Source of the DNA: Deltaproteobacteria bacterium | Lineage (GTDB): Bacteria > Desulfobacterota > Syntrophobacteria > Syntrophobacterales > Syntrophobacteraceae | NCBI GenBank assembly: GCA_012517315.1 | Contig: JAAYVE010000053.1 | Span: 62,001 to 126,000, forward strand | DNA: 64,000 nucleotides | Direction of reading: 5' to 3' | Shown: positions 1 through 21,877 of the stretch, piece by piece | Layout: each line of letters begins with the position of its first letter | How positions within the stretch are numbered: the stretch's first letter is position 1 | Position numbers and translations under genes: made by a program | The notes under the pieces: model-generated | What the model was told of the DNA's origin: nothing | Seen by the model: only the letters and a program-made list of their open reading frames with translations | Databases searched by the model: none

Positions 1-2
1 AG

Positions 3-4693: not shown

Positions 4694-4998
4694 ACAGCCT
4701 GAATGTCTATCTCACCATTGGTGCGGCCCTTTTCAGCATTGGCCTGCTGGGGGTGCTGCAGCGCCGGAATCTCATCGGCATGCTCATTGCGGTGGAATTG
4801 ATGCTCAACGGAGCCAACGTGAACTTCATGGCGTTTAACCGCTTTCTGGCTCCCGATCCGACCGTAGGGCAGATCATCACCTTGTTTGTCATGGGCCTGG
4901 CGGCAGCTGAAGCGGCCATCGGGCTGAGTATCATCCTAGCCCTGTTTCGCCGCCTTCATTCCATCAATATTGAGCGTGCACAACAACTGAGGGGATAA
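4690..4998 (+). CDS. nuoK: NADH-quinone oxidoreductase subunit K
   Basis: Smallest membrane subunit (ND4L family), three transmembrane helices, 102 residues. It carries the two membrane-embedded glutamates of the family, in VELMLNGANVN and AAAEAAIGL. The GTG at 4690 overlaps the nuoJ stop (GTGA) and is preceded by GGAGG at 4677-4681, which decides the start; an in-frame extension upstream inside nuoJ is not NuoK-like. Confidence 0.95.
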   Translation: MNSLNVYLTIGAALFSIGLLGVLQRRNLIGMLIAVELMLNGANVNFMAFNRFLAPDPTVGQIITLFVMGLAAAEAAIGLSIILALFRRLHSINIERAQQLRG

Positions 4999-5004
4999 TC
5001 GGTC

Positions 5005-6972
5005 ATGATGTCGCTCTTGAAGGATCCCGTTCTTCTGGCCGCAGCTTTGGGGACGAGCCTGCCGTTTCTCTCCATGGCGGTCATTCTCGTTTTCACCCGC
5101 CAGAACCAAAGGCTATCGGCAACGATTTCGGTGGGAAGCGTATCGGTGTCGCTCCTGAGCAGCCTGTACCTCCTCATCACTCTCTACGGCGCGGGAGCCC
5201 CTGTTCAATACGAGTTTCCCTGGCTTCTTGCGGATGATATCGTCATCCCCTTCGGATACCTTCTGGACCCGTTGAGCCTGCTGATGCTCACCATCGTCGC
5301 GGTGATCAGTTTCCTGGTGCAGGTTTACTCCATCGGGTACATGTCGGGTGATCCGGGTTTCAGCAGGTACTACGCCTTCCAGTCTCTTTTCGCTTGGGCC
5401 ATGATGAGCATGGTCATTGCGCCGAGCATGCTCCAGCTTTTCATCTTCTGGGAATTGGTGGGGCTCGCCTCCTATCTGCTGATCGGGTTCTATTACGAAA
5501 AATGGAGCGCTTCCCAGGCAGGAAAAAAGGCCTTCGTCATGACCCGCCTCGGGGACATCGGCTTTTTCCTGGGACTCATTATCCTGGTGCTTGGCTTTGG
5601 GGACCTGAGCATTGTCCGGATGAACGAGGCGGGGCAAGGGCATCAGATTCCCCAGTATCTCATCACCATCTCGGCTCTGCTCATTTTCGGCGGGGTCATG
5701 GGCAAAAGTGCCCAATTTCCGCTCCTCACATGGTTGCCCGATGCCATGGAAGGTCCCACTCCCGTCAGCGCGCTGCTGCACTCCGCCACCATGGTGGCTG
5801 CAGGCGTCTACATGTTCAGCCGCATTTTTCCTTTCTATTCCATGTCGCCTGAAGCTATGGCGCTGGCCCTCGCCATCGGGACGGTCACCATGCTCCTGTC
5901 TTCCACCATGGCCATGGCCACTTACGATCTCAAACAGGTTTGGGCTTATTCCACAGTGAGCCAACTGGGGTTCATGGTCATGGGGCTTGCTGCGGGCGGG
6001 TATTTTGCCGGCGTGTTTCACTTGACCACCCATGCGGGGTTTAAGGCGCTGCTTTTTCTGTGTTCGGGCATTTTCATCCACGAATACCACACGAACGATT
6101 TTCGCATCATCGGTCAACAGGGGGGGAGAAAACTGATGATCCCCATGGTTTGCATGACCGTGGGGGCCTTGGCCCTTTCAGGAATCTTCCCCTTTTCGGG
6201 TTTCTTCAGCAAGGAAGCGATTCTCGGGGTGCTCGCCAACCATCCCAACAAGCTTTGGCTGGGTGCAGGGTTGGTCGGCGCCCTCATGACCGCCTATTAT
6301 ACGTTTCGGCTCATTTTCTTCATGCTCTTCCCCAGGGGCGTTGCAGCGGCCCACGGAGTTCATGACGCAAAAGGTTCGGGACATGGCCATGATGATCACG
6401 AGGGGGAACACCACGGGTACATCTTCTGGACCATGGCGGTGCCTGTCATGATCCTGGCGGGGATTTCCGTCGTGCTCGGGTTTTCCCAGTCTTCCCTGGA
6501 AAGCTTTCTCATGGGACATGGGAGTGTGCCGGCTCAACTTGCGGCATCCGGGGGGGAAGGGCATGCTGCGGCCCATGACGGCCATGGGATCGGTCATTAC
6601 GCCCTGCTGATCGGTGCCGTAACCATGGCTTTGGGAGGCATTTTCTGGGCCTTCATGGAGTTTGGAAGAAAGGGGGCCACCCAGGAGGGGTTTCTCCGGG
6701 CTTTCCCCGTAGTGGAGAGACTCTTTGCGGCGCGGTGGTACATGGATGCGTTTCTGCGCGCCTTCCTGGATAAGGTGATCTACTCCGGCCTCACAAATGT
6801 CTTCACCCGCAACGATCGCAGGGTCATCGACGGAGGAATCGACGGGATCTGCTTTTTCACCGTTGCCGGAGGTCGGCTTTTGAGCTTTCTCCAGTCGGGC
6901 ATGCTTCAGTACAACCTGCTGGTAATGATCGTGGCCGTGGGTTTTGTGGTGCTCTACTTCCTTCTTGCCTAA
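5005..6972 (+). CDS. nuoL: NADH-quinone oxidoreductase subunit L (antiporter-like)
   Basis: Distal Mrp-antiporter-like subunit of complex I with the long lateral helix. 655 residues. Conserved parts include WELVGLASYLLIGFYY, WLPDAMEGPTPVSALLHSATMVAAGVYM and HAGFKALLFLCSG, with the lysine and glutamate residues of the proton path. Two His-rich loops near residues 448-470 and 519-531 are unusual and described separately. ATG 5005, seven bases after the nuoK stop. Confidence 0.96.
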   Translation: MMSLLKDPVLLAAALGTSLPFLSMAVILVFTRQNQRLSATISVGSVSVSLLSSLYLLITLYGAGAPVQYEFPWLLADDIVIPFGYLLDPLSLLMLTIVAVISFLVQVYSIGYMSGDPGFSRYYAFQSLFAWAMMSMVIAPSMLQLFIFWELVGLASYLLIGFYYEKWSASQAGKKAFVMTRLGDIGFFLGLIILVLGFGDLSIVRMNEAGQGHQIPQYLITISALLIFGGVMGKSAQFPLLTWLPDAMEGPTPVSALLHSATMVAAGVYMFSRIFPFYSMSPEAMALALAIGTVTMLLSSTMAMATYDLKQVWAYSTVSQLGFMVMGLAAGGYFAGVFHLTTHAGFKALLFLCSGIFIHEYHTNDFRIIGQQGGRKLMIPMVCMTVGALALSGIFPFSGFFSKEAILGVLANHPNKLWLGAGLVGALMTAYYTFRLIFFMLFPRGVAAAHGVHDAKGSGHGHDDHEGEHHGYIFWTMAVPVMILAGISVVLGFSQSSLESFLMGHGSVPAQLAASGGEGHAAAHDGHGIGHYALLIGAVTMALGGIFWAFMEFGRKGATQEGFLRAFPVVERLFAARWYMDAFLRAFLDKVIYSGLTNVFTRNDRRVIDGGIDGICFFTVAGGRLLSFLQSGMLQYNLLVMIVAVGFVVLYFLLA

Positions 6973-7090
6973 GGGAGATGGGATACGGGCCTCCCGGGGG
7001 GAGCACTTCGGGAAGCCTGCACCTGACGGCGAATGGGACGGAACGTTTTGGTGAGATCCAACAATTCAGACACCCTTTTTTGAATAACGG

Positions 7091-8584
7091 ATGGACCGGC
7101 TTATGACTCCGATGGAAATGGCTTCTTTTCCGATTCTCACCGCAATCTTGGCGTCCACCATCGTTGGCCTCCTGGTCATCGTTTTCATCCCCGACGGGCG
7201 TGACAAACTGATCAAACAGGTCAGCCTGGCATTTTCAGCCGTGGGGCTCGCCCTGAGCGTCTGGGTGTATCTGACCTACGACGTGCAAAAAGGGGGATTG
7301 CAGTTCGTGGAGCGGTACCTTTGGGTGAAGGGCCTCGGCATCTACTGGTTCAATGCGGTGGACGGCATCAACGCGCCCATGCTGCTCCTCACCGCCGTGG
7401 TGCTTTTCACGGGGGTCTTGACCATGTGGGAACTGGAGGTGCGCGTGAAAGAGTTTTTCGCCTTCATGTTCCTCCTGGTGGCGGGGGTTTATGGCGTCTT
7501 CATGTCCATGGACCTATTCTGGATTTTCGTCTGGTACGACGTTTCCCTATTCCCCATGTACCCGCTCATCGCCATCTGGGGAGGCACGCGCAAGGAATAC
7601 GGAGGCATGAAACTGACGCTCTATCTCCTTGCGGGCAGTGCCCTCATCTTGCCGGGTATCATTTACCTCTGGGTCCAGGGCGGTGCCGGGACTTTCGACC
7701 TGTTTGAGCTCCAGCGGATTGGGTTCACGCCTCAAGTGCAAAGAGTCGCTTTCATCATGCTCTACCTCGGCTTCGGTATCCTCGCCGGTGTCTGGCCGTT
7801 CCACACATGGTCGCCCGTAGGCCACGTAGCCGCGCCGACAGCGGTGAGCATGATCCACGCGGGGGTGCTCATGAAGCTGGGAGCATATGGGATCCTGCGG
7901 CTGGGTATGACCTTATGCCCCGAAGGACTGGGGTACTGGTCGGAACTCATGGCCCTTCTGGCGACGGTGGGGATCGTTTACGGCGCTTTTGTAGGACTTG
8001 CCCAGACGGACCTCAAGTACGTCATCGGCTATTCAAGTGTTTCACACATGGGCATTGTGGGCCTCGGCCTCTCCACCATGACGGTCAACGGTATCAATGG
8101 GGCGGTCTTCCAGATGTTTGCCCATGGGGTCATGACGGCCCTCCTCTTCTCCTCTGTCGGCTATATCTACGACAAGACGCACACGAAGATGATCCCTGAA
8201 CTGGGAGGTCTTTCCAGGACCATGCCGGTGGCTTCCGCCTTTTTCATCATTGCGGCTTTTGCGGGCATCGGTGTGCCATTCATGGCAAGCTTCTGGGCCG
8301 AACTCCTTGTATTCATCTCTGCGGTGAAGACTTATCCGGTGCGCGGCATCCTGGCAGTGAGCGGGTTGGTGGTCAGCGCCCTGTTCATGCTCCGGGTCGT
8401 TCAGAAGACGTTTTACGGCGAAAAGAACGAGAAGTGGGAACACATTCCCGACGTGCCCCTTTTCCTCGCCACCCCGAGAATCATCCTGGTGGGGACCATC
8501 CTGTTCTTCGGGATGTTTCCCCGGGTCATGCTGGATGTGATCCAGAGTGCAGTCATCCCATTTGTGGCAGGCCTGTCCGTTTAG
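7091..8584 (+). CDS. nuoM: NADH-quinone oxidoreductase subunit M (antiporter-like)
   Basis: ND4-family antiporter-like subunit. 497 residues and about 14 hydrophobic helices. The conserved helix WYDVSLFPMYPLIAIWGG and the signature FHTWSPVGHVAAPTAVSMIHAGVLMKLGAYGILR are both present. The start is uncertain: ATG 7091, 7103 and 7112 are all in frame and none has a strong ribosome binding site. A 118 bp GC-rich gap separates it from nuoL. Confidence 0.95.
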   Translation: MDRLMTPMEMASFPILTAILASTIVGLLVIVFIPDGRDKLIKQVSLAFSAVGLALSVWVYLTYDVQKGGLQFVERYLWVKGLGIYWFNAVDGINAPMLLLTAVVLFTGVLTMWELEVRVKEFFAFMFLLVAGVYGVFMSMDLFWIFVWYDVSLFPMYPLIAIWGGTRKEYGGMKLTLYLLAGSALILPGIIYLWVQGGAGTFDLFELQRIGFTPQVQRVAFIMLYLGFGILAGVWPFHTWSPVGHVAAPTAVSMIHAGVLMKLGAYGILRLGMTLCPEGLGYWSELMALLATVGIVYGAFVGLAQTDLKYVIGYSSVSHMGIVGLGLSTMTVNGINGAVFQMFAHGVMTALLFSSVGYIYDKTHTKMIPELGGLSRTMPVASAFFIIAAFAGIGVPFMASFWAELLVFISAVKTYPVRGILAVSGLVVSALFMLRVVQKTFYGEKNEKWEHIPDVPLFLATPRIILVGTILFFGMFPRVMLDVIQSAVIPFVAGLSV

Positions 8585-8602
8585 TGAAGGGAAGAAGCGA
8601 CA

Positions 8603-10024
8603 ATGATGCAATGGGTCCTTTTCGTTCCTGAGCTGTTTTACATTCTCATGGCGGCAGTGTTCTTCTGCGCGTCCCTCAGCAGAAGGCAGCAGCCTTCCCG
8701 CCTCTACATCTGGGCGCTCACCATTTCGGCGGTCGGTGTGGTCGTCACCGTTCTGTCGGCCAGGCAGGAGGGGATGCTCTTCTTCGACGCCTACCGGGTG
8801 GACCTTTACAGCCAGCTGTTTAAGCTGCTCATTGCCATGGGGACATTCTGGGTGGTCTTTTCGTGCAGTGAACTCAAGGGTGTCAGCGAAAGGCAGCACG
8901 CCGAATTCTACTTCTTTCTGTCCGTCTGCACCCTGGCCATGATGATGCTGGTGAGTTCTGTTGAGCTCCTCACCATTTACGTGGCCATCGAGCTGTCGTC
9001 TTACTCCCTTTACCTCCTTGTCCCCATGAGACAGAGGGCGGACGAATACGCGGAGACAGGCATCAAGTATTTCATGATCGGAGTCACGGCCTCCGCGTTC
9101 ATGCTTTTCGGCATCAGCCTTCTTTACGGTGTTGTGCAGAATACATACGTGACGGAGGTGATCCGGATCCTTCCCACGGTGATCCATGAACCTGCAGCGG
9201 TGGTAGGGCTCATCCTTGCTCTCTCCGGCTTCTTTTTCAAGCAGGCCCTTTTCCCCTTTCACATTTGGGCCCCCGACGTCTACCAGGGTGCTGCCAACCA
9301 AGTGACCACATACATTGGCACGGCCTCGAAGATGGCCGCGGCGGCCATGGTCATCCGTTTCGTGGGTTTTTCCAACGAAGCCAGTGAGCTCTTCGTCCAG
9401 TTGCTGGTGGTTCTTTCCATCCTCTCCATGACGTTTGGCAACCTGGTCGCCATCATCCAAAAAGACCTCAAGCGGCTTCTGGCATATTCCAGCATTGCCC
9501 ATGCCGGCTACATGATGATTGGAATCCTGAGCATGACGCAGCGCGGGTACGCCAGTGCCATCTACTATGCCATCGCTTATCTGGTCATGACTTATAGCTG
9601 CTTCATGGTGATCATGAGGGTCGCCGAAGACGGGCACAATCTCCAGATCAAGGAACTGGCCGGCTTGCACAAGCGATCTCCCCTCCTCGCCATGACGCTC
9701 ATGCTCGGGCTTTTCGGGCTGGCGGGCATTCCTCCCACCGTGGGATTCACGGGGAAGTTTCTCGTTTTTGCGGCCGCCCTCGAAAAAGGATATCTGGCCT
9801 TGGTCATCATTGGCATGGTCAACGCGACCATTTCTCTATACTATTATTTGATCGTCATCAAAGCGGCATACCTTCTGGAGCCGGTACATCCTTATCCCCC
9901 CGTACCGGTGGATTCCTGGACGCGAACCATGAGCATCGCACTGGTGATCCTGATGGTTTACCTCGGTGTTTTCCCCGACCAGTTCGTCGCATTGACGGAA
10001 GCCGCCGCTCGCAGCCTCTATTGA
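8603..10024 (+). CDS. nuoN: NADH-quinone oxidoreductase subunit N (antiporter-like)
   Basis: ND2-family antiporter-like subunit of complex I. 473 residues, polytopic. Conserved regions include the helix with [17 protein letters not shown] (membrane glutamate), [21 protein letters not shown], and the [14 protein letters not shown] segment. ATG 8603 follows GAAGGGAAGAAG; ATG 8606 is an alternative. This ends the set of 11 conserved core subunits. The next genes are not standard nuoE/F/G. Confidence 0.95.
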
Positions 10025-10079: not shown

Positions 10080-10931
10080 ATGGGATTTTTCAAGGATCTG
10101 ACTCAGGAATTGAACAAGAAGCCGTGGGTTCCCTTCTTGAAAAAGGAGCCGGTGAACTCCGCGGAGACTCCGGCGGGAGAGGTGAGAAGGGATCGGAAGC
10201 CTGCAGCGTTCTGTCTTGAGGATTCGCCGCTGCCCTGCGTGACGGTTTGCACGCCGAAAGCCGGCTGTCCCTGCGGCTGCGAACAGTTGCGGGATGCACT
10301 GGAGGAGGAAATCGGCCGAGCCGGCCTGCAGATCCAGGTGGGCAACCTCAAGGTGGGGTGTGGTGGGTTCTGCGAAGCGGGGCCTTTCTTGGGTTTCCCC
10401 CACAAGGCCTTTTTCTACTTGAAAGTGCGGCGGGAACACGTGCATTACATTGTTCATGAAACCCTTCTCAAGGGGCGCATCCTCTTCGAGCTTCTCTCCA
10501 TCGACCCCGAAAGAACCTACCGGACCGACATATATTACGACAAGCGCTCGGGGCTCATTGCCACGATCCATGAGGGGATATGCATGGTGGAGGTGGCCAA
10601 GTACTTCCTCGATTTCGAGGAAAACGTCTCGTGCGGCAAGTGTGTTCCCTGCCGACTGGGAATGAAGAGAATGCATGAGAGCATGGAGAAGATCGTCACG
10701 GGGAGGGGAACCGAAAACGACCTACTCCAGATCCGGGAACTCTGCCACGCCATGATCGCCATTCCTCACTGTGAGTTCGCCATGACGAGCAGTCGACCGG
10801 TGCTCAGCGCAGTCACCCATTTTGAGGATGAGTTCAGAGCGCACATAGAGGAGAAAAGATGCCCCGCGGGGGTCTGCAAGGAACTCATGGAATACCAGAG
10901 AAAGCAGGCCATGAGACGCAGGAAGAAATGA
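10080..10931 (+). CDS. NuoE/NuoF-like chimera lacking the FMN/NADH domain
   Basis: 283 residues from ATG 10080, preceded by AGGAAAG. Residues about 50-115 look like a thioredoxin-fold [2Fe-2S] ferredoxin of the NuoE type, with C57/C63 (more Cys at 65 and 67) and C94/C98 in VGCGGFCEAG. Residues about 140-270 match the C-terminal part of NuoF: a degenerate SLBB-like linker, then SCGKCVPCR (C185, C188, C191) and C231 of the NADH_4Fe-4S domain (cluster N3), ending with CPAGVC as in NuoF/HydB proteins. The NuoF Rossmann domain that binds FMN and NADH (Gly-rich GAGFPTG region) is absent. It could pass electrons from another donor into the NuoG-like protein, but cannot be a classical NADH-oxidising subunit. 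The role is inferred. Confidence 0.82.
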   Translation: MGFFKDLTQELNKKPWVPFLKKEPVNSAETPAGEVRRDRKPAAFCLEDSPLPCVTVCTPKAGCPCGCEQLRDALEEEIGRAGLQIQVGNLKVGCGGFCEAGPFLGFPHKAFFYLKVRREHVHYIVHETLLKGRILFELLSIDPERTYRTDIYYDKRSGLIATIHEGICMVEVAKYFLDFEENVSCGKCVPCRLGMKRMHESMEKIVTGRGTENDLLQIRELCHAMIAIPHCEFAMTSSRPVLSAVTHFEDEFRAHIEEKRCPAGVCKELMEYQRKQAMRRRKK

Positions 10932-10997
10932 GGGTGAACCAAGGGACCGGGGTGCTTCAGTACCATCATCTAGAGACCGTCAAAGGGATAACTCGCT

Positions 10998-13313
10998 ATG
11001 GCAACGGGTACACTCAAGATCAACGGCCAGGAAGTGGAAGTGGAAAAGGGCTCAACGATACTCCAGGCGGCGGAGAAGGCCGGGATTTACGTTCCCGTCC
11101 TGTGCTATCATCCCTTGCTGCCGCTGGAAGAAGCTTGTCGCATCTGTGTCGTGGAGGATGTGCGTGGAGACTGGTCCACTCTCGTCGCCGCATGTGTATA
11201 CCCGGTGCGCAACGGAATGGTGATCCAAACCGATTCCCCCATGGTGATCGAAGCCCGCAAGACCATCATGGAGTTGCTCTTGTCCGACCATCCCAATGAT
11301 TGTATGACCTGCTATGCCACGGGCAGTTGTGAGTTGCAGGATCTGGCGCACATCTACCAGGTGAAGTCCACCAAGTACGAGGGAGCACGGCACAAATACA
11401 CCGTTGATTCGGACCCGAGTCCATACCTCTTCATCGACATGAACAAATGCATTTTGTGCCGGCGGTGTATCCGCGCTTGCCACGAAATACAGGGAGCGGA
11501 CATTTGGACGAAGGTCGGCCGGGGTTTCGACCAGCGGATTTCCACTGCCTTCGGCCTTCCCCTTGCGGAGGCTGGGTGCGAGGACTGCGGTCACTGCGCG
11601 GATTTCTGCCCGGTGGACGCCATCGGGTACCGGGTGGGGAGGGGTGAAGTGCGTTCCTGGCAGTTGAAGGGAACGGCGACCATTTGCCTCCACTGCCCTT
11701 CAGGCTGCAGGGCTCAGTACGATACTCTGAAAGACAAGGTGGTGCGGGTTGTGGGGAACGCCGAGTCCCCGTCGAACCGGGGAGCCCTGTGCAAGGCAGG
11801 CCGTTTTAATTTCAATTTCATCAATTCGCCCGACCGCCTGAGAACTGCTGCAATGCAAAATGCTCAGCGAGAGCTGGTTCCGTGTTCTACGGATGAGGCT
11901 CTCGATGCTGCGGCTGCAGCCCTTCAAAAGGTCCGGGATTCTCACGGGGTGAACTCCATTGCTGTGCTCTGTGGGAGCATGCTCACCAACGAGGAGTATT
12001 ACCTGGCTCAAAAACTCGCCCGTTGCGCCCTCTTCACCAATCACGTGGACAACGCCTCCGGAGCCTGGCAGCAGGCGATTCACGAGGCCATGTCGGCAAG
12101 CCTAGGGTTTGGGGCAATGCCCGGCAGCCTTCAGGACATCGAACGAGCCGGTGCAGTGCTCGTGATGGGATCCAATACCATCGAAAAGCATGCCATGGCG
12201 GCAATTCGAGCCCGGAAGGCTGCGCGTGGGGGAGCCCCTCTCATCGTGGTCCATCCTTCCCCAGTGCCAATGACCAAGACTGCGAACATGCATCTGGCCA
12301 TCAAAGCAGGGAGTGAATCGGCCCTGTTACAGGGTTTGATCAAGGTGATCCTCACGGAAGAGCTGTACGACAAGGCCTTCGTGGAGAAGTGCACGCAGGA
12401 TTTTGCGAAGTTGGAACGGAGCGTCCAGAAGATCAACCTGGGGGACGTCGCGGAAAAGACCGGCCTCTCTGAGGAGCAAATCCGGGATGCCGGCCGTCTC
12501 TACGCCAGCCGGAGGCCTGCCTGCCTCGTCCATGGGGCGGAACCGCTGGACAACACGGCCAATGAGAGCTTCTATCGGAATTGTGTGAACCTTCAATTGC
12601 TCCTAGGATCGGTGGGGGTGCCCGGTGGAACTCCCTGCCTCATGGGATTCGGCGGAAACGGGCAGGGTGCCGGCGATTTCGGAGCGCTTCCCAAGTACCT
12701 TCCCGGTTACCGTCCTGTCACGTCGAGCCCTGCCAGGAAGACCGCAGCCAAGGTATGGGGAGTTTCGCCTCCTGACAAGCCCGGTATGCACTGTTCGAAG
12801 GTCTTTGAAGCCATCGAGAGGGGCGAAATCAAGGGACTTTACCTGATCGGGCTCAATCCCTTAGAGCTCGTGCCCAATAAGAAACGGTTGGAAAGCGCCC
12901 TGGCAAGGCTGGATGTGCTGGTTGTCCAGGACTGCCTGAGTTCGGAACTGTGTGAGGCGGCGCAGGTCGTTCTTCCAGCGGTGACTTTTGTGGAGAAGCG
13001 GGGGACGGCCACCAATTGTGAACGGCGAATCCAGCGCTTGCAGCCGGTTTTGGCTTTGCAGGGCGATGTCCGCAGCGATTTCGACCTGATCAATGGTCTT
13101 TTGGGAAGGCTCGACGGTGAACTTCAGGCTGACTCCCTCGAATCGGCTTTTGCAGAAGCCGGCCAACTGATTTCCGATCTGAACGGTCTTTCCCATGAAA
13201 CCATTGCGCCCGAGGGCGTTCAGTGGCCGGTCGGTGACGGTCCTGCAGGGGCCGAGAGAATTGCGCTGCCGGAAGGAGAAAAGAGCAAGTTCAAGTTTGC
13301 CGCCGTGAAATGA
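10998..13313 (+). CDS. NuoG / formate dehydrogenase alpha-like iron-sulfur protein
   Basis: 771 residues. Order of clusters: [2Fe-2S] (C36, C47, C50, C66); the His-Cys [4Fe-4S] site typical of NuoG and Fe-hydrogenase (H98, C102, C105, C111); two ferredoxin [4Fe-4S] (C151/154/157/161 and C194/197/200/204); then a MopB [4Fe-4S] (C230, C233, C237, C265) and a molybdopterin-oxidoreductase-like domain to the end. Where formate dehydrogenases have the Mo-ligating Cys or Sec, the aligned stretch (about 351-360, DNASGAWQQA) has none, and the C-terminal dinucleotide-binding domain is not evident. It is therefore more likely an electron-transfer NuoG analogue than an active formate dehydrogenase. It follows the NuoE/F chimera closely. 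Confidence 0.85.
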   Translation: MATGTLKINGQEVEVEKGSTILQAAEKAGIYVPVLCYHPLLPLEEACRICVVEDVRGDWSTLVAACVYPVRNGMVIQTDSPMVIEARKTIMELLLSDHPNDCMTCYATGSCELQDLAHIYQVKSTKYEGARHKYTVDSDPSPYLFIDMNKCILCRRCIRACHEIQGADIWTKVGRGFDQRISTAFGLPLAEAGCEDCGHCADFCPVDAIGYRVGRGEVRSWQLKGTATICLHCPSGCRAQYDTLKDKVVRVVGNAESPSNRGALCKAGRFNFNFINSPDRLRTAAMQNAQRELVPCSTDEALDAAAAALQKVRDSHGVNSIAVLCGSMLTNEEYYLAQKLARCALFTNHVDNASGAWQQAIHEAMSASLGFGAMPGSLQDIERAGAVLVMGSNTIEKHAMAAIRARKAARGGAPLIVVHPSPVPMTKTANMHLAIKAGSESALLQGLIKVILTEELYDKAFVEKCTQDFAKLERSVQKINLGDVAEKTGLSEEQIRDAGRLYASRRPACLVHGAEPLDNTANESFYRNCVNLQLLLGSVGVPGGTPCLMGFGGNGQGAGDFGALPKYLPGYRPVTSSPARKTAAKVWGVSPPDKPGMHCSKVFEAIERGEIKGLYLIGLNPLELVPNKKRLESALARLDVLVVQDCLSSELCEAAQVVLPAVTFVEKRGTATNCERRIQRLQPVLALQGDVRSDFDLINGLLGRLDGELQADSLESAFAEAGQLISDLNGLSHETIAPEGVQWPVGDGPAGAERIALPEGEKSKFKFAAVK

Positions 13314-13330
13314 ACCCATCCGCCACCACC

Positions 13331-13354
13331 AGCTGAAGATTTGCACCTTCAGCT
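13331..13354 (+). terminator. Perfect 8 bp hairpin after the NuoG-like gene
   Basis: AGCTGAAG (13331-13338) pairs perfectly with CTTCAGCT (13347-13354) around an 8 nt loop, 17 bp after the stop of the NuoG-like gene. There is no T-tract, so intrinsic termination is uncertain. It may be a processing stem or a weak, Rho-assisted end of the nuo transcript. Confidence 0.4.
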
Positions 13355-13548
13355 CATGAAACCCGCCGGGAGGACTTTGGAGCATCTAAAAAAATGGATC
13401 GTCGCAGGGTGAGGATGTCAAACAGGAGAGGTCTCTCCCTGCGCCGTGAGGGGACGGACCCGGGCCCCCCTCCTGGGGCTTGGGCCTTGAAGTCTTCGAC
13501 CATTTCCCGGGGAAGAGGGCCGGGCAGCATCCATGTCCCGGTCGGGTT

Positions 13549-13764
13549 TTAGCGGATCATATCAAAGTCTTCGAAGTCCTGTAGGAAATCCTCTGACAGC
13601 CTGAAACCTGCCATGAGTACACCGCTCTCGGACTGATTGTGGAAGGTCAAAATAAGGCGGTTGGCGTGCTGGGAGTCATCCTCGATCTTGCCGATCTCGC
13701 TGAGCCTTTTTTTCAGGTTTTCCCTGTCGCAGTTTGCGCTGGGTTGAATCCACATCCTTTTCAT
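13549..13764 (-). CDS. Small acidic-tailed hypothetical protein
   Basis: 71 residues, not recognised. The ATG at 13764 is preceded by a very strong GGGGGAGGGG ribosome binding site (plus-strand 13773-13782 region), which is the main support. It begins with basic and polar residues (MKRMWIQPSANCDRENLKKR), continues with a hydrophobic beta-like stretch (RLILTFHN) and ends in an acidic tail (EDFLQDFEDFDMIR). No signal peptide or membrane segment. It stands alone on the minus strand between the NuoG-like gene and the histidine kinase gene. Real-gene status is probable, not certain. Confidence 0.55.
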   Translation of the reverse strand: MKRMWIQPSANCDRENLKKRLSEIGKIEDDSQHANRLILTFHNQSESGVLMAGFRLSEDFLQDFEDFDMIR

Positions 13765-14502
13765 GTTTGCAGCCCCTCCCCCTGTTGGTGTTCATCGTGC
13801 AGAGCCTTTTCCTGAGACCAGATCATTACCATGAACATTGAAAAATAACAAGGCGTTGAGATGCATTTCGGGGACGTGGCACAAGGCCGAATCGAGGAGG
13901 TCCCAGGCAAAAGGCGCGATCCCTCGCGACACCATGGAAGGTCGCAAGAGGGCAATTTTGCCGAGTTCCGGACGGCTCTTGCCAGGGGCTGAGGCAGAAG
14001 AGGGATGGGGGGGAGGATGCAATTGAACTCATGTCATGAAGGTGTGCAAAATCCGTTTGCCTCAAGCGAATTGCCGCTGGCGTCTGTCGGGTCTCGACAG
14101 CGTCGAAAGGCGCATGGCCCCGTCCCATCAATGGAAATGAACAAACGAACAACGAATTTGACCGGGAAACGATATCGTGCTTTAATCCCAGTGAGCAGAT
14201 CGATCATGAGGTCTCTTGCGCATGACTCTGTCGAGTGGAAGCCGCTCTTCTCTCCTCTGCCGCTTATCTCCCCCAAACTCCAGTTCTCAATGAACACCGC
14301 CTGTGCGGGGGGCTGGAGGAATTCTCTTCGGCCTGCATCATGATGACGCCTCCCCCGAGCCGTTCCTTTGCCGGTTTGATCGGCAATCCGTGAGAGTGGG
14401 GAGGGGGATGACGTGGGAAAAAATGGGGCAAGCTGGTCGCAGACACGCCTGGAATGCAATTGAGGGTGTGTTGCAACTTTTCCTTTCACGCGGGCCCGGA
14501 CC
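13765..14502. other. 738 bp intergenic region with one strong promoter
   Basis: No convincing gene is present; short frames here have no homology that I recognise and poor starts. The plus strand carries a good sigma-70 promoter at 14158-14186 (separate entry), leaving a leader of about 310 nt before the histidine kinase gene. The leader has small inverted repeats, for example CTCCAG near 14279 and CTGGAG near 14311, but no clear terminator or known riboswitch. Confidence 0.5.
14158..14186 (+). promoter_or_regulatory. Sigma-70 type promoter upstream of the histidine kinase
   Basis: TTGACC (14158-14163, 5 of 6 matches to the -35 consensus), a 17 bp spacer, and TTTAAT (14181-14186, 5 of 6 matches to the -10 consensus). 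It would start transcription near 14193, about 310 nt before the kinase gene, so it drives either a long leader or a separate small RNA. Confidence 0.55.
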
Positions 14503-16593
14503 ATGCAATTCATCAGCCGACTGAGCTTTCAGAACAAAATCATGCTGGTCACCTTGGCCATGCTGTTGTTTGTGGTGGTCACAGGGGCCGTTGCGATCGA
14601 AAGGCTGATCCTGCCGGCCATGGAAAAGGACCTGGAGTTCGAGGCGGGCAGGGTGAACAGGACTGTTCTCTCCCAAGTGGTGGAGTTGCCGCGGGAGGAT
14701 TTTGAATCGGAGGCGAAAAGAAGACTCTTCACCCTTTTTCAGGTGCGTCCCAAGCTTCTCTTCGTGGAACTGACGGATGCCGACAACCGGGTGATCTTTC
14801 AAATGGAAAAGGAGGCGCTCGGCGAGGGGATCGATCGATGGATCTCCGAGGGCGTTCAGCCTGGGAGCCTCTATTCCAGGGAAAAGACACCCCACGGGCC
14901 AATTTACGAGATGGTGACCCAGACGCGAGGTTCTCACGTTTCAAATGCACCGTTGACCGTTCGTGTGGGTTTTTCCACCAAGTCCCTGGACGATCTCGGC
15001 CGGCAGTTGTTCCAGGTGTTGATCACCACTGCCCTGGTTTTGCTCGTGGTGAGCTTTTTCGTCACGCGATGGTTCACCAGAATGATCGTCCTGCCGGTGA
15101 ACCGGCTTCTTGGCATGGCCCATTGCTTGGCCACGGGGCGGTTGGAGGATGTGGTGAAAGAGGTGAAAGCGAAATTTCCCTGCGCCAATTCTGATTTCGG
15201 AGGTGAAGGGGTTCTGGACAAGGGTCCAGGGGAGTTCACCCCCTACTGTTCCCGGTGTCCGCTTGCCCGCAACGGGGAGGTCATGGAAGCGCCCTTGCCG
15301 CCTCGGGACTCAGCCGATCCCTGCAGCCAATGCGCGGTTTACGCCCGTTCCGGCAAGGATGAACTTTCGAGGCTTTTTCTGGCATTCCAGTGCATGGCCG
15401 CAGGGATCCGATCCTACCAGGAGAGGCTGCGCCTGCGCTATGAGTTCGAACAGAGGCTCTTGGATGCGTGCCCCGACGGTATCATGGCAAACGATCGGGA
15501 AGGGCGCATCATTCTTTTCAACAAGGGCGCAGAGCGGCTTCTGGGATATGAATCAAAGGAAGTGCTGGAAACACGGTTCTCCGTGGAGCAAATTTACCCC
15601 CCAAGAGAGGCCCATGCGGTGAAGAAGGCCCTTCTCAGCGAGGAGTACGGGGGACCGGGCATTCTGGTGGATTACTCAACGGAGGTCATCCGTAAGGACG
15701 GTCGTTCCATTCCTATTCGGCTCTCTGCGGCGATCCTCTATAAGGGTTCGCAGGAGATCGCCGTCGTCGGGTTTTTTCATGATCTCTCCGAGCTGCGTGA
15801 GTATATGGACGCCATCATTCAGGCCAACAACAGCCTGGATGCTGCAAACAAGCGCCTTTCTCGACTGAATCGACATTACATGGAGATGCTGAGTTTCGTC
15901 ACTCATGAACTGAAGTCTCCTGTTTCCAACGCCTTCATGAGCGCCAATGCTCTGAAGCAGGGAATTTTCGGTTCACTGAGTCGGGACCAGGATTTCATGG
16001 TGGACGCCGTCTGCCGCAATCTGACGCAGTCAATGGAAATGATTCGGCATTACCTGGACTTGGCCAGGATTGAACGGGACGAATTCCCCGTTCAGAAACG
16101 CTGGACGCCGATTCTGGCTGAGATTGTGGAGCCGGTGCTCAAGGGGATGGGGAATGCCATACGGGAGCGAGGAGTGAAAGTGGAGGTGAACATCCCTGAC
16201 GATTTCTGTTGGAATCTGGATCCGGAGTTGTTCAGGGGGGTTTTCACCAATCTTGTGGGAAACGCCCTGAAGTATGGGGAAGAGTCGGGCAGAATCCGCA
16301 TCACGGTGCAGCGCGAAGACGGCGGGGTGAGGATGGAGGTGTGGAACAGTGGTGCAGGTGTTCGTGAAGGGGATCGACACCGGCTTTTCCAACGTTTTCA
16401 GAGGCTTCAAGGGCCCAGGGGGGGGGCCGTAAGGGGAACGGGGCTGGGTCTGTTTATAACCCGGACCATCGTGGAACGGCACGGAGGGACCATCCACAGC
16501 GAGGGGGAGGAAGGGTCCTGGATCAGTTTTGTCATTCGTTTGCCCTCCACTTCAGAGTCGCAGGGAGAGGAAGAGTGCCAGATGAATCAATAG
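14503..16593 (+). CDS. Membrane PAS sensor histidine kinase with Cys-cluster HAMP insert
   Basis: 696 residues. TM1 about 12-35, a periplasmic domain about 36-168, TM2 about 170-188, HAMP from about 190. The HAMP is split by an insert (about 225-283) with five cysteines: C227, C249, C252, C274, C277, spaced as two CxxC pairs plus a single Cys; the second HAMP helix resumes at GKDELSRL. A PAS domain follows (about 315-430), then HisKA with phospho-acceptor H468 in FVTHELKSP, and HATPase_c with N box NLVGNALKYG and G box GTGLGLFI. It probably phosphorylates the REC protein downstream. The Cys cluster suggests metal or Fe-S binding and hence redox sensing, which is inference. A G9 tract lies at 16418-16426. 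Confidence 0.9.
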   Translation: MQFISRLSFQNKIMLVTLAMLLFVVVTGAVAIERLILPAMEKDLEFEAGRVNRTVLSQVVELPREDFESEAKRRLFTLFQVRPKLLFVELTDADNRVIFQMEKEALGEGIDRWISEGVQPGSLYSREKTPHGPIYEMVTQTRGSHVSNAPLTVRVGFSTKSLDDLGRQLFQVLITTALVLLVVSFFVTRWFTRMIVLPVNRLLGMAHCLATGRLEDVVKEVKAKFPCANSDFGGEGVLDKGPGEFTPYCSRCPLARNGEVMEAPLPPRDSADPCSQCAVYARSGKDELSRLFLAFQCMAAGIRSYQERLRLRYEFEQRLLDACPDGIMANDREGRIILFNKGAERLLGYESKEVLETRFSVEQIYPPREAHAVKKALLSEEYGGPGILVDYSTEVIRKDGRSIPIRLSAAILYKGSQEIAVVGFFHDLSELREYMDAIIQANNSLDAANKRLSRLNRHYMEMLSFVTHELKSPVSNAFMSANALKQGIFGSLSRDQDFMVDAVCRNLTQSMEMIRHYLDLARIERDEFPVQKRWTPILAEIVEPVLKGMGNAIRERGVKVEVNIPDDFCWNLDPELFRGVFTNLVGNALKYGEESGRIRITVQREDGGVRMEVWNSGAGVREGDRHRLFQRFQRLQGPRGGAVRGTGLGLFITRTIVERHGGTIHSEGEEGSWISFVIRLPSTSESQGEEECQMNQ

Positions 16594-16689
16594 GCGCCGA
16601 TCCTAAAGCATCGAAAGGCACCAAGGGCTGAAGGCCGGCCGGACAGATTGGAAACCGTCATTCAACGCACTTCCATGGAGGTTTGTCTT

Positions 16690-17097
16690 ATGGCTGAGGA
16701 CAGAATTCTCATCATCGATGATGATCCCAGTTTCCTGGAGATCACAGGGGCCATCCTCAGGCGCTTTGGTTATGACGTGCTCACAGCGGACAACACAGTG
16801 GAGGGGTTGCGGTGCATTGAGACCGAGCAACCGGATCTCCTCATTCTGGACATCATGATGGCGACCATGGACGAAGGACTCCGATTTGCCGTGAAGCTGA
16901 GACAGAACGAGAAACTGCGGCGCCTTCCCATCATCATCATCTCCGCCCAGCCTGACACGGAGAAGGGCTATTCGCGGGATCTGGACGAGGACATGGACTG
17001 GATCGCAGCGGATATTTTCATGGAGAAACCTGTGGATCCACAAGCCTTGAAAGAGAACATACAACTGCTTCTCTCAAGGGAACAGTCACCACGGTGA
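16690..17097 (+). CDS. Single-domain response regulator (REC only)
   Basis: 135 residues from ATG 16690, chosen because GGAGG (16677-16681) sits 8 nt upstream. A complete receiver domain: acidic pair in LIIDDDPSF, phospho-acceptor Asp in LLILDIMM, a conserved Ser in IIISAQ and Lys in MEKPVDP. No output domain, so it acts by protein contact or phosphorelay. It lies 96 bp after the Cys-insert histidine kinase, its likely partner. Confidence 0.92.
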   Translation: MAEDRILIIDDDPSFLEITGAILRRFGYDVLTADNTVEGLRCIETEQPDLLILDIMMATMDEGLRFAVKLRQNEKLRRLPIIIISAQPDTEKGYSRDLDEDMDWIAADIFMEKPVDPQALKENIQLLLSREQSPR

Positions 17098-17334
17098 AGA
17101 TCTCTTTCTTTTGAGATTCCGCCAATTCCTGTTTCCCGTGAACTCTCTGCACGATCGGCACCAGGCCGAGTGTCCGTTCCCTCTCCCTTCGCGGATCGCC
17201 GCTGTGATCGCCCTGAATTCCCGCACCCTTGCCGACCGCACTCCACCAGCAGTCTTCTGAGTGCCTGAAGGTCTTGTGATCGCTTGACACAAACCCAAAA
17301 CCATTTTCTGTCCAAAGCATATTGGGAGGAAAGA

Positions 17335-20300
17335 ATGAGCAAGCGTGTGAGAATTTGCCTGAACGGAAAGGTGGTTGAGGCTCCAGAAGGTGCGACCATT
17401 CTCGAGGCTGCCCGTGAGGAAGGGATCTACATCCCCACCTTATGCCACAGCCCCCTGTTGCGCCCCCTTGAAAACTGTCGCCTTTGCGTGGTGCAGGTGA
17501 TGGGAGAGAGGCAGTACAAGGCGGCCTGCAGCACGCCTGTTGCCGAAGGGATGGAGATCGTGACGGACAGCGAGGAACTTCGCAGAACCCGGAAGCTTCT
17601 GCTGGAACTTCTCCTGGATACGCATTACGGGGACTGCGTGGCACCTTGCACCGTGGCATGCCCGGCCAATGTGGACATACAGGGCTACTTGGCTCTCATC
17701 CGCAGAGGGGAGTACCTGGAAGCGGTGCGTCTCATCAAGGAAAAAATCCCGATGCCTGCGGTCATCGGCCGCGTCTGCCCCCACCCCTGTGAGGCGGCCT
17801 GCCGAAGACATCTGGTGGATGAAGCAGTCAATATCAATCCTTGCAAAAGGTTTGCCGCCGATTACGAAATTCGATCCGGCCGGCGTGTCCTTCCGGAGGT
17901 TCCGGGGAATTCGGGCCATTATGTCGCGGTCATCGGGGGAGGGCCTGCCGGATTGAGTGCAGCCTATTATCTCAGGTGCCTCGGACATGGCGTGACCATC
18001 TACGAGGAAAGGGAAAAGCTGGGGGGAATGCTGCGCTACGGCATTCCCGAATACCGACTGCCCAAAGTCATCCTCGACTGGGAGATCGAGGGGATTCTCA
18101 GCCTCGGGGTCGGGGTCCGGACAGGAGTTCGCTGGGGTAAGGACTTCACCCTGGACGATCTCCACAGGGACGGTCACGAGGTGGTTTTCCTCGCTATCGG
18201 TGCCTGGGCTGCTCGGAAATTGGGCGTAGTGGGAGAGGATCTGAAGGGGGTTACGGAAGGGGTTGGTTTCCTGGAGCGCATTGCAAGAGAAGGGGTGATC
18301 GAGACGGTGAGGGGGAAGCGGTTGGCTGTCATCGGGGGTGGGAATGTCGCCATCGATGCCGCTCGGTCTGCACTGCGGATGGGCGCCAAGGAGGTATCCA
18401 TTCTCTACCGACGCTCGCGGAACGAGATGCCGGCGAGCCATGAGGAGATCGAGGCGGCTGAAAAGGAGGGTGTGAACATCCAGTATCTCCTTGCGCCCAC
18501 CAAGATTTCTGATGGAAACGGCTCCAGAATCAAACTGGAGTGTATTCGGATGGAACTGGGAAAGCCGGACGCCAGCGGGCGAAGGCGCCCCATTCCGGTG
18601 GAAGGGTCTGAAACCACGGTGGAAGTGGACGAGATCATCAGTGCCATTGGTCAATACTCGGAAATCCCCAATCCGGATTCAGACATCGCCATGGCTGAGT
18701 TGCCAGTCACCCGCTGGAACACCATCGGCGGCGATCCCCGGAGCATGCACACGGGGATCAAGATGGTCTTTGTGGGCGGAGACCTTTTCAGGGGACCCGC
18801 TACGGTTGTTGCCGCTCTGGCCGACGGTCGCAAGGCCGCATACTCCATAGACAGGTACTTCCGGAGCAGCCGTGTGGAACCTGAGCCCCTCCATTTCAAC
18901 ATCAGCAAGGGCGACCTGGAAAGCATCGACCGGGAACCTTTCAGTGTCATGAAGACGATTTCCCGTGAGACCATGCCGGAGCTGGGGACGAAGGAACGCA
19001 TCCAAGGATTCCAGGAAGTGGAACTGGGTTTCGGGGAGGATCAGGCCAGGAGGGAGGCGGCACGATGCCTGGTGTGCGGCTGCTCCGCTGCGTTTGACTG
19101 CCGCCTTAGAGACCTGATGAATGAGTTCCAGGTGGATTGGCGTGATCAGCCGAGCAAAAAGATTCATTACCAACGGGTGGCGGCCGTCGATGTCCACCCG
19201 AACATCACCCTCGATCCCAACAAGTGCATTCGCTGTGAACGTTGCAATGTGGCCTGTGCGGAGTTCCAATGCTCGAACGCCATTGTCCTCAAGGAGTATC
19301 CCCGTTTCAACGACCGCTGCGTGGAGTGCGGGCTTTGCATCGACCTGTGTCCCACGGGTGCACTCATGGAACGCAGGGAAGGTCGGGCGGTGGAGCGTCT
19401 CCAGTGGACGAGCGTGGCGACTCACTGCATTCATTGCGGATGCGGTTGTCGCATCGACCTCAAGGTGAAGGGGACAAAGCTCGTGTGGATCAGCGACGGG
19501 CATGAGGGTCCACCCAATTGGGCTTCCACGTGCCGGAGAGGGCGTTTCGACACTTATGATCGTCTCTGGTTCGGTGAAAGGCTCACCAGCCCAATGATCC
19601 GCAAGAAAGGCCGCCTGAAGGAAGTCAGCTGGGATGAAGCCCTGGCGGCAGTCCATGAAGAGTTCACCAGGATTTCGGGACGTCATGGACCTCAGTCCGT
19701 CGCAGCACTTGCTTCTCCTTCAGCCACTAGTGAAGCCCTCTATCTGCTTCAACGGTGGATGCGGTCCGCTTGGAAATCCAACAACATGGACTTTCGAGGT
19801 CGCCGGTCTTTGGAACAACTGTGGGGTCTCCTTGAGGGATACAGGAATCTCGGGGGAAAAACGCTGAAACTTGGGGATCTTGCCCGAGCGGATGGTTTTT
19901 TCATTCTGGGCGATGACCTGGAGACCACCGCCCCCATAGTGGCCACCATGGTGCGGCGGGCGGCCCGGCGCGAGGTTCCTGTGTGGCTGATAGGCGGGGG
20001 CGTCGGCCTGCAACAGTATTGCCGAGTCACCATCGAGGCCCCCTCGCCGCTGTGGAATGCCCTTGTTTGGGGCATCTTCCAGGAATCGGCGAAGGACCTG
20101 GAGCTCTCTGAATCGGGCCTGGAAGGGGGCGCTGGAAACCCCCCGGGCTTAGGGGCAGCTCTTCGGGATTTGAGCGACCATGTGCAAGAACAGCTGGCGG
20201 CTGTGGGAAAAGGATTGAGGCAGTGTCGGTCCCCTGTTTTCCTACTGTGCGATTCTGTTATGGAATCGGAGGACAGAATCCAGGCAGCGGAGGCCTGCTT

Positions 20301-20904
20301 GAAGATTGCCACCGTTGCCGGTCGTTCCGGAGGCGGGGAAGAGGGTGGTGTCTTGCTTCTCTCGCGTCACATCAACAGCGCCGGTGCCCTGTTCACCGGA
20401 TTGAGCCCGGTGCGGCAGACGGGGTTTCTGCCTCTGTCCGACGATGAGGGAAGTCGGCGCTGTGCAGAGGCGTGGGGCATCGATTCCCTTACGCAGAAAC
20501 AAGGCCTGGAAATGGATGAATTCCTGAAATCCAAGAAAACGAAGGCACTGTTTGTGCAAAATCCCGGGGCCCTGACGGCGGAAGACTCGCTGCAGTGGAA
20601 GAAAAAGCTGAAGAGCATCGAATTCTTGGTGGTGCAGGACACCGTGCCGGGTGTGGCCATGGAAGTGGCGCAGGTGGTGCTCCCCGTGGCGGGTTTCGGT
20701 GAGCAGCAAGGCAGCGTGTTCAATCTTGAACAGTCTTTCCTTCAGCTCGGGGAAGCCATTCCGCCGGCCGGACAGGCGTTGGCCGACTGGGAGATCATGA
20801 GAAGACTGTTAAACATGGCGGGAGCAGATGTGCCTGGAGACCCGGCGGGCATCCGCAGGGAGATCTGCAGGGTGGCACCTCACTTGGCGGAACGCTTCAG
20901 CTAG
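17335..20904 (+). CDS. Giant fusion: [2Fe-2S] - GltD-like FAD/NAD(P) reductase - 2x[4Fe-4S] - MopB-like
   Basis: 1189 residues from ATG 17335 after GGGAGGAAAG. Order: NuoG-type [2Fe-2S] (C37, C48, C51, C65); GltD N-terminal cluster region (C101, C105, C109, C148, C152, C156); FAD motif GGGPAG at 201-206; NAD(P)H motif GGGNVA at 334-339; second FAD contact near 479-501; Cys-rich bridge CLVCGC at 578-583; two ferredoxin clusters (C631/634/637/641, C662/665/668/672); MopB-type [4Fe-4S] (C698, C701, C705, C733); then a diverged molybdopterin-oxidoreductase-like domain without a visible Mo ligand. It resembles a glutamate synthase small subunit fused to a NuoG/FdhA chain. Beside a complex I without NuoF, it is a candidate NAD(P)H input module. 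That role is inferred. Confidence 0.88.
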   Translation: MSKRVRICLNGKVVEAPEGATILEAAREEGIYIPTLCHSPLLRPLENCRLCVVQVMGERQYKAACSTPVAEGMEIVTDSEELRRTRKLLLELLLDTHYGDCVAPCTVACPANVDIQGYLALIRRGEYLEAVRLIKEKIPMPAVIGRVCPHPCEAACRRHLVDEAVNINPCKRFAADYEIRSGRRVLPEVPGNSGHYVAVIGGGPAGLSAAYYLRCLGHGVTIYEEREKLGGMLRYGIPEYRLPKVILDWEIEGILSLGVGVRTGVRWGKDFTLDDLHRDGHEVVFLAIGAWAARKLGVVGEDLKGVTEGVGFLERIAREGVIETVRGKRLAVIGGGNVAIDAARSALRMGAKEVSILYRRSRNEMPASHEEIEAAEKEGVNIQYLLAPTKISDGNGSRIKLECIRMELGKPDASGRRRPIPVEGSETTVEVDEIISAIGQYSEIPNPDSDIAMAELPVTRWNTIGGDPRSMHTGIKMVFVGGDLFRGPATVVAALADGRKAAYSIDRYFRSSRVEPEPLHFNISKGDLESIDREPFSVMKTISRETMPELGTKERIQGFQEVELGFGEDQARREAARCLVCGCSAAFDCRLRDLMNEFQVDWRDQPSKKIHYQRVAAVDVHPNITLDPNKCIRCERCNVACAEFQCSNAIVLKEYPRFNDRCVECGLCIDLCPTGALMERREGRAVERLQWTSVATHCIHCGCGCRIDLKVKGTKLVWISDGHEGPPNWASTCRRGRFDTYDRLWFGERLTSPMIRKKGRLKEVSWDEALAAVHEEFTRISGRHGPQSVAALASPSATSEALYLLQRWMRSAWKSNNMDFRGRRSLEQLWGLLEGYRNLGGKTLKLGDLARADGFFILGDDLETTAPIVATMVRRAARREVPVWLIGGGVGLQQYCRVTIEAPSPLWNALVWGIFQESAKDLELSESGLEGGAGNPPGLGAALRDLSDHVQEQLAAVGKGLRQCRSPVFLLCDSVMESEDRIQAAEACLKIATVAGRSGGGEEGGVLLLSRHINSAGALFTGLSPVRQTGFLPLSDDEGSRRCAEAWGIDSLTQKQGLEMDEFLKSKKTKALFVQNPGALTAEDSLQWKKKLKSIEFLVVQDTVPGVAMEVAQVVLPVAGFGEQQGSVFNLEQSFLQLGEAIPPAGQALADWEIMRRLLNMAGADVPGDPAGIRREICRVAPHLAERFS

Positions 20905-21737: not shown

Positions 21738-21877
21738 GAAACGCATGGCATCTGTCAACGGAGGATGCATCGGGGAAAAAGCAGAGGAGAGGCTGAGCCG
21801 TTGATTCGGCAGGTCCCTGCGCATGGGGCCTCCTCTGCGGGTCCAACGGACAAATGAAAACCATGGAGGTTCACTGC

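Follow-up and report, generated by a model that had tools for sequence, protein, structure and literature searches.

A flavin-less NuoF-like protein next to complex I genes in Syntrophobacteraceae and a possible NADPH-type electron input beside it

Introduction

Which donor reduces the complex I cores that have no NuoE, NuoF and NuoG (NuoEFG) is posed as an open question in the literature (PMC11238625). A stretch of 64,000 nucleotides from a Deltaproteobacteria bacterium of the Syntrophobacteraceae, here called the window (contig C22, positions 62001-126000; genome of 4.43 Mb in 61 contigs, 99.36% complete), seemed to hold such a core. Its nuo genes are followed by genes for three iron-sulfur (Fe-S) proteins, P1, P2 and P3, which a preliminary description of the window took for a replacement of the module that oxidizes reduced nicotinamide adenine dinucleotide (NADH). 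Our favored reading, which we hold tentatively, is instead that the locus encodes a complex I of the anaerobic type that has an NADH head of its own (NuoE, a HydB-type NuoF, and P2 as NuoG), to which P1 would add an Fe-S subunit in the seat of NuoF or of StnB from the Stn transhydrogenase, with P3 as an adjoining input for the phosphorylated donor NADPH. This reading is built on gene content, domains, conservation, linkage and family trees, from which docking, direction and donors are inferred.

Results

nuoE and nuoF lie directly upstream of the window. The operon runs nuoE-F-A-B-C-D-H-I-J-K-L-M-N-P1-P2 (Table 1). The 11 core subunits recognized earlier form a single gene run, and relatives align to them in the same order. 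The reported lack of nuoE, nuoF and nuoG does not hold. The first two seemed to be missing because the window edge cuts inside nuoA (base 1, C22:62001, falls 22 bp inside the gene); nuoE and a full-length nuoF stand directly 5′ of nuoA, with intergenic gaps of 10 and 2 bp, and P2 occupies the NuoG slot. A loss of nuoEF from the genome is thus rejected as a window-edge effect. The NuoF flavin mononucleotide (FMN) domain PF01512 occurs in seven copies genome-wide, one of them immediately 5′ of the window. This operon NuoF carries a thioredoxin (Trx)-like 2Fe-2S domain, the FMN domain, an N3 domain and two 4Fe-4S (Fer4) domains, with a weak SLBB match below the cut-off.

In the Protein Data Bank, P2 matches alpha chains of formate dehydrogenases best (408 bits). 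P2 scores 383.9 bits against the formate dehydrogenase alpha model TIGR01591, below its cut-off of 666, and 354.8 bits over residues 6-699 against the NuoG model TIGR01973, below the curated cut-off of 470. N1b- and N5-type motifs were found (PF13510 and PF10588), so that domain and structure matches agree with the earlier view of P2 as a NuoG/FdhA-like multi-cluster protein. A tryptophan stands opposite selenocysteine 360 of the FdhA from the same genome, the C-terminal stretch is absent, and a search of P2 for the molybdenum (Mo)-cofactor domain PF01568 gave no match. An active formate dehydrogenase was rejected because of the tryptophan at the Mo-ligand position and the missing C-terminal domain. 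Judged by its N1b/N5-type N-terminal domains, the lost Mo ligand and the operon position, P2 most likely serves as NuoG here.

P1 is a NuoF/HydB-like protein without a flavin domain. The short NuoE/NuoF-like chimera described earlier was recovered as a Trx-like 2Fe-2S domain followed by an N3 4Fe-4S domain (PF10589, E 1.7e-24). Residues ~54-150 match the Trx-like N terminus of HydB/NuoF and residues 157-273 the N3 region. The FMN/NADH domain PF01512 was absent from P1 in the domain search, and the block is also missing in the alignment with HydB. Both P1 segments match in order in 52 of 78 HydB-type open reading frames (ORFs), where they are separated by a median of 316 amino acids (303-322) that P1 does not have; the C-terminal ferredoxin domain of HydB is absent from P1 as well. 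AlphaFold, given P1 aligned with HydB proteins, modelled two domains with a linker of low confidence between them (mean predicted local distance difference test score of 72), and the best Foldseek matches of this model are HydB, StnB and NfnABC chains, mostly over ~110 columns.

All four N3 cysteines are conserved throughout the 27 aligned P1 sequences. By position, C94, C98, C185, C188, C191 and C231 are found in every row, C57 in 24 and C63 in 22. A further motif, H255/C261/C266, is kept in 24, 25 and 22 of the 27 P1 rows, respectively, and is invariant in 30 NuoF/HydB rows. StnB carries a zinc-linker site (PMC10482914), and the P1 motif appears to be its counterpart. Three other cysteines, C45, C53 and C65, occur in 23, 20 and 24 of the 27 P1 rows compared with 0, 1 and 0 of the 30 NuoF/HydB rows; lying around the 2Fe-2S motif, these P1-specific residues possibly form a further metal site. 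The P1 proteins of G002, G003, G006, G008 and G015 have a long C-terminal extension, which in the four that were aligned (G002, G003, G008 and G015) is rich in glutamate and alanine with a lysine-rich tail at its end. Most P1 proteins from loci of the window's own type (type A, below) end in a short basic tail.

A scan of genome contigs with the P1 alignment gave at least 586 matching stretches, as one of the chosen patterns is common; the 80 loci kept were general NuoF/HydB matches and were reused as comparison rows. In the P1 tree, whose root is unplaced and in which the P1 of G221 forms a long branch, a 100/100 branch splits the 27 P1 rows from 30 FMN-bearing rows (nine NuoF of nuo operons and 21 HydB-type proteins; StnB was outside the comparison, and G003 was left out since its ORF was not found). 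A recent truncation of the operon nuoF is rejected, as P1 stands apart from all 30 FMN-bearing rows at this branch. A decaying remnant is likewise rejected, given the N3 ligands in 27/27 rows and relatives 42-60% identical to the window P1. P1 was present in 35 of the 55 genomes of the class, our own included, and a phylum sample of 395 genomes gave P1 in no fewer than 16 at E <= 1e-37; this is a lower bound, as the cut-off missed the P1 of G141 and G221. A literature search over titles and the starts of abstracts recognized no P1-like or P3-complex I system.

One explanation for P1, which we regard as unlikely, is that it has a structural or assembly role, filling the NuoF site as a plug or placeholder and transporting no electrons. 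The missing flavin would fit such a role, as would the low-confidence linker between the two cluster domains in the model, the variation of part of the 2Fe-2S motif between lineages, and the occurrence of P1 at loci with neither P2 nor P3 nearby. However, the conservation of its cysteines, with six invariant and two kept in most rows, exceeds the needs of a plug.

P3 resembles StnC and the NfnABC large subunit. The description of P3 as a GltD fusion was borne out, with a 2Fe-2S domain, a GltD-type domain and a NuoG/FdhA-like chain. Its best structural matches are the large subunits of NfnABC from Caldicellulosiruptor (9bov; 627 bits, residues 4-812), StnABC from Sporomusa ovata (8oh5; 576 bits, residues 4-807) and NfnABC from Thermococcus (9n5u; 541 bits, residues 2-772). 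The GltD domain is inserted in a NuoG-like chain that has StnC-type cluster cysteines, and by these sequence features P3 is a homologue of StnC and the NfnABC large subunit. As described in PMC10482914, StnC is a GltD-NuoG fusion of 1172 amino acids with six 4Fe-4S clusters, one 2Fe-2S cluster and a flavin adenine dinucleotide (FAD)/NADPH site. Its FdhF-like domain is inactive, bifurcation has been lost, and NADPH electrons are passed to StnB, the path in StnABC being NADPH-FAD, the StnC clusters, cluster B1 of StnB and then FMN. Since P3 is a homologue of a protein that passes NADPH electrons along a cluster chain to StnB, the earlier proposal that electrons may enter through the GltD fusion is plausible. 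Ligand motifs give 14 Fe-S sites instead of the roughly 12 estimated earlier (two in P1, five in P2 and seven in P3; P1 and P2 counted by reading the sequence, P3 by comparison with the number in StnC).

All 26 cluster cysteines of P3 are conserved in 29 of 29 rows, comprising 10 from units with a histidine kinase and response regulator (HK-RR-P3), one from family f6, six from loci divergent from nuo, three from nuo-P1-P3 loci and nine from Stn-type operons; the count excludes five other, divergent rows, which vary. With those five included, all 34 rows carry the second nucleotide motif and 33 the FAD motif, and by reading of the alignment a lysine corresponding to the cluster-ligand lysine of StnC is kept in all 34. 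Just before this lysine, C170 is found in 10/10 P3 proteins of the order and 0/24 others, and may alter the ligation of the cluster near the FAD. In the P3 tree, for which the program warns of long branches and composition and which was built without G273 (ORF not found), one side of a 100/99 branch holds the P3 proteins of this order, the divergent f5 loci, the nuo-P1-P3 loci, one f6 row and two rows without linkage to nuo (G392 and G410).

An alternative that we consider improbable is that the window P3 is a Stn-type transhydrogenase which borrows NuoE and NuoF from the operon, leaving complex I an ordinary NADH enzyme with P1 as an accessory. The StnC-like stretch, which covers residues 4-812 of 1189, fits this, and the Trx domain at the N terminus of the operon NuoF together with the two 4Fe-4S domains at its C terminus are hallmarks of a bifurcation module (PMC10482914). 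Borrowing would also fit the gene order, as neither StnA nor StnB was found next to P3 in our genome or in 9/9 readable relatives of the order. Yet Stn-type operons in the phylum keep their own NuoF: among 20 further P3 loci, NuoF directly precedes P3 in 10, with NuoE visible in six of these, while the rest comprise two nuo-P1-P3 loci, one with NuoE-NuoF after P3, two with NuoE-NuoF several kb away and five with neither. Two observations also speak against the transhydrogenase: the nine P3 proteins of Stn operons fall outside the 100/99 branch that holds the window P3, and the P3 loci of families f5 and f21 have nuo genes where no NuoEF was seen.

Many P3-like frames in the phylum (for example L299-L307) are ~1360-1400 amino acids long with one in-frame TGA; they probably encode selenocysteine formate dehydrogenases with a fused GltD domain. 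In G045 (f6; stretch L259), the P3 gene is near genes which by sequence reading resemble the CooS carbon monoxide dehydrogenase and a ferredoxin.

P1 follows nuoN in most mapped genomes, and P3 adjoins nuo in some relatives. The map of P1 loci covers 31 genomes, leaving out G012, where an overlapping ORF masks P1, G001, whose nuoN is on a different contig, and unfetched P1 loci. P1 stands directly after nuoN in 29 of them, whether nuoEFG is present or not, and between nuoF and P2 in the other two. The arrangement of the window's order, type A, is nuoE-F-A...N-P1-P2. Here nuoEF is upstream of nuoA in 12 of the 15 mapped genomes of the order in which that stretch is readable, our own included, and was not seen there in the remaining three (G006, G008 and G015). 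P2 follows P1 in 15 mapped genomes, including G024, whose 10 kb contig carries nuoE-F-P1-P2 without the core, and G192, from another family, in which the order is nuoN-E-F-P1-P2. Type B, from the same family as the window, has the core and P1 with no P2 adjoining P1 (G002, G003, G006, G008 and G015; the contigs of G002 and G003 begin inside nuo). In family f15 (G063, G100 and G135) the core is likewise accompanied by P1; nuoEFG was not seen there, with G063 alone readable upstream of the core.

Type C is found in family f5, where P3 is divergent from nuoA and is followed on the other side by the core and P1. P3 is beside nuoA in 9/9 f5 genomes with readable P3 flanks, with no nuoEFG seen in these stretches, and five of them (G040, G042, G047, G048 and G050) have P1 at the opposite end of nuo within the P3 contig. 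In family f21, nuoN, P1 and P3 are co-directional in all three genomes (G141, G169 and G221, the last with a stretch that starts at nuoH), again with no nuoEFG seen there. The f5 and f21 genomes were examined in part for nuoEFG elsewhere; NuoE-NuoF pairs in G042 and G044 are at a distance of ~40 kb, and a different protein is encoded after each. G045 has P3 with no nuo gene within 19 kb, and G041 and G039 show one side only or a short contig.

Among 58 relatives, P1 and P3 were both found in 24, P1 only in 10, P3 only in one (G054, with nuoAB beside P3) and neither in 23. In these counts G010 is P1-negative although its P2 begins at a contig end, G033 and G056 are not counted as P3 as their matches cover the GltD part alone, and several counted P3 matches are partial (for example G036, G039, G041, G044, G052, G053 and G054). 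The proposal of a replaced NADH module fails for this genome, where nuoEF is directly upstream of nuoA and P2 serves as the likely NuoG. It gained ground elsewhere, as P1 accompanies cores where no nuoEFG was seen at the locus, and P3 is beside such cores in f5 and f21. A head-replaced complex I probably exists in these relatives, not in this genome.

Discussion

Within complex I, electrons pass from the N3 cluster of NuoF to NuoG and then to NuoI. P1 keeps the N3-type cluster motif and has no FMN domain. We suggest that P1, a NuoF/HydB scaffold minus its flavin domain, would be seated in place of NuoF or StnB on the outer face of a NuoG-type subunit, either P2 or P3. NADPH electrons would enter at the FAD of P3 instead of NADH electrons at FMN; alternatively, a small carrier such as ferredoxin could reduce the P1 clusters. 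From P2 or P3, electrons would run to NuoI and then to the quinone. Cluster B1 of StnB is, by homology, presumably of the N3 type. Most likely, P1 substitutes for NuoF, and the core would thereby accept other donors, namely NADPH through P3 and perhaps ferredoxin. More loosely than the favored reading, we consider P1 as an adaptor for exchangeable heads, with NADH entering via a bifurcation-type NuoEF and P2, or NADPH via P3 while P1 occupies the place of NuoF, and with ferredoxin perhaps donating at P1 itself; lineages with nuo, P1 and P3 would then have an NADPH-driven complex I without an NADH module. As the operon NuoF is of the bifurcation-module type, the type A complex might conceivably use NADH and ferredoxin together.

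Several observations weigh against this picture of P1 and P3 as an alternative input. NuoEF is present in this genome, so P1 is not a replacement here. The HK-RR-P3 unit lies away from nuo in 9/9 readable relatives of the order. The near-complete genomes G006, G008 and G015 contain P1, yet gave no P3 hit and have no nuoEFG 5′ of nuoA, so that P3 is not an obligatory partner of P1. P1 was not seen on the P3 stretch in four of the nine f5 genomes, where the nuo ends are apart in the assembly (G044 and G046), the stretch ends within nuo (G049), or a 62% complete genome gave no P1 hit (G054). The co-occurrence of P1 and P3 among the 58 relatives (Fisher p 3.6e-7) is uncorrected for relatedness, and the composition warning for the P3 tree covers all three f21 rows among others. 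Finally, the 2Fe-2S region of P1 varies more than its N3 region, with the counterpart of C57 missing in three f21 rows and C63 in four f15 rows and G030; by reading of the alignment, other nearby cysteines could serve as ligands in the f15 and f21 rows. H255/C261/C266 is lost in the P1 of G008 and G015.

The other genome of the genus has P1-P2-HK-RR up to a contig end, with P3 at the start of a different contig. Because the arrangement is shared with this genome as far as contig ends allow, and is not found in the nine order relatives, the adjacency of the P3 unit to P2 is a genus-level arrangement. Least likely of the explanations considered is that HK-RR-P3 is an independent NADPH-oxidizing unit that landed beside nuo in this genus by coincidence, which would fit the separate position of the unit in those nine relatives and the 1.2 kb gap and HK-RR pair that part P3 from P2, but is at odds with the two further arrangements in which other lineages place P3 beside nuo and with the tree that unites these nuo-adjoining P3 proteins with that of the window.

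The favored combination of an NADH head, P1 and P3 can be set beside several known systems. Bacterial 14-subunit complex I (NuoA-N) has the same 11 core subunits, and here NuoE, NuoF and the NuoG-like P2 are in one run with them; the differences are a longer NuoF of the HydB type, an FdhA-like NuoG and the extra flavin-less P1. The HydB/NuoF-family beta subunits of bifurcating [FeFe] and [NiFe] hydrogenases (7t2r, 7q4v and 8a6t) are matched by P1 in the Trx-like part, the N3 domain and mostly the histidine/cysteine/cysteine motif, whereas P1 is without their ~316-amino-acid FMN/SLBB block and C-terminal ferredoxin domain, and most P1 proteins add C45, C53 and C65. With Stn/NfnABC, P3 shares the StnC domain order and cluster number (PMC10482914), and P1 is alike to StnB-type chains over the N3 part. 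In contrast to those systems, neither StnA nor StnB is beside P3, its group is apart from the nine Stn-operon sequences, and P1 has no FMN block. As in Desulfitobacterium, Dehalococcoides and cyanobacterial NDH-1, no nuoEFG was seen at the locus of the core in G006, G008, G015, f5 and G063, but here P1 is a constant partner after nuoN.

P1 represents a concrete, constant partner of NuoEFG-less cores, both in one class and in two additional families of the phylum, and the P3-bearing loci suggest NADPH as a donor. The wider finding is a conserved partner of complex I that resembles NuoF without the flavin domain, together with a P1 and P3 arrangement that may replace the NADH module elsewhere. 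If true, heads of complex I are exchanged more freely than an NADH-centered view implies, and NADPH could either power proton pumping directly or be produced through reverse electron flow.

Features of the locus and a second complex I

Coordinates are collected in Table 1.

Table 1 Features of the nuo-P1-P2-P3 locus. Positions are those of the window unless a contig (C22) or extracted stretch (L008) is named.
Feature	Position	Strand	Length	Remarks
nuoE	C22:59642-60112 (L008:7642-8112)		156 aa	upstream of window; PF01257, E 5.4e-46
nuoF	C22:60123-61976 (L008:8123-9976)		617 aa, complete	upstream of window; PF01512, PF10589
nuoA	1..371	+		first 22 bp outside window, upstream; named by reading of sequence
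nuoB	332..883	+		start codon uncertain; named by reading of sequence
nuoC	880..1353	+		start and name by reading of sequence
nuoD	1346..2470	+		start by reading; PF00346 at C22:63724-64467
nuoH	2603..3586	+		named by reading of sequence
nuoI	3695..4135	+		start and name by reading of sequence
nuoJ	4169..4693	+		named by reading of sequence
nuoK	4687..4998	+		start approximate, ORF opening at 4528; named by reading of sequence
nuoL	5005..6972	+		named by reading of sequence
nuoM	7091..8584	+		named by reading of sequence
nuoN	8603..10024	+		named by reading of sequence
P1	10080..10931	+	283 aa	Trx-like 2Fe-2S, N3-type 4Fe-4S and H255/C261/C266 motif; no FMN/SLBB block
P2	10998..13313	+	771 aa	FdhA-like, most likely NuoG; no Mo ligand, no C-terminal Mo-cofactor domain
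Histidine kinase	14503..16593	+		PAS histidine kinase of HK-RR-P3 unit
Response regulator	16693..17097	+		of HK-RR-P3 unit; receiver domain alone found
P3	17335..20904	+	1189 aa	2Fe-2S and NuoG/FdhA-like chain; inserted FAD/NAD(P)H domain of GltD type; 7 cluster motifs

A scan of terminators and promoters gave no excess over shuffled sequence, and an Rfam search of window positions 1-30000 gave 0 matches. A response regulator (L008:5768-6223) and a sensor kinase (L008:6410-7552) are encoded on C22 5′ of nuoE, as seen in several relatives too, and control of the nuo operon by this pair is possible. Just 3′ of P3, positions 21854-22693 of the window encode proC, and in G006, G008 and G015 a proC homologue is just upstream of nuo on the opposite strand, which suggests one shared neighborhood.

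The genome has a second complex I on contig C40, with nuoE, nuoF (429 amino acids) and nuoG (837 amino acids). A single reading frame carries its NuoB, NuoC and NuoD domains (Pfam), and nuoA and nuoH-N were recognized by reading of the sequence; a Trx domain was not found in the C40 NuoF. This set (L071:1-20000) is split between nuoF (1321-2610) and nuoG (6449-8962) by intervening ORFs, whose sequence starts resemble an SbcC/Rad50-type ATPase, a nuclease-like protein and a coiled-coil protein.

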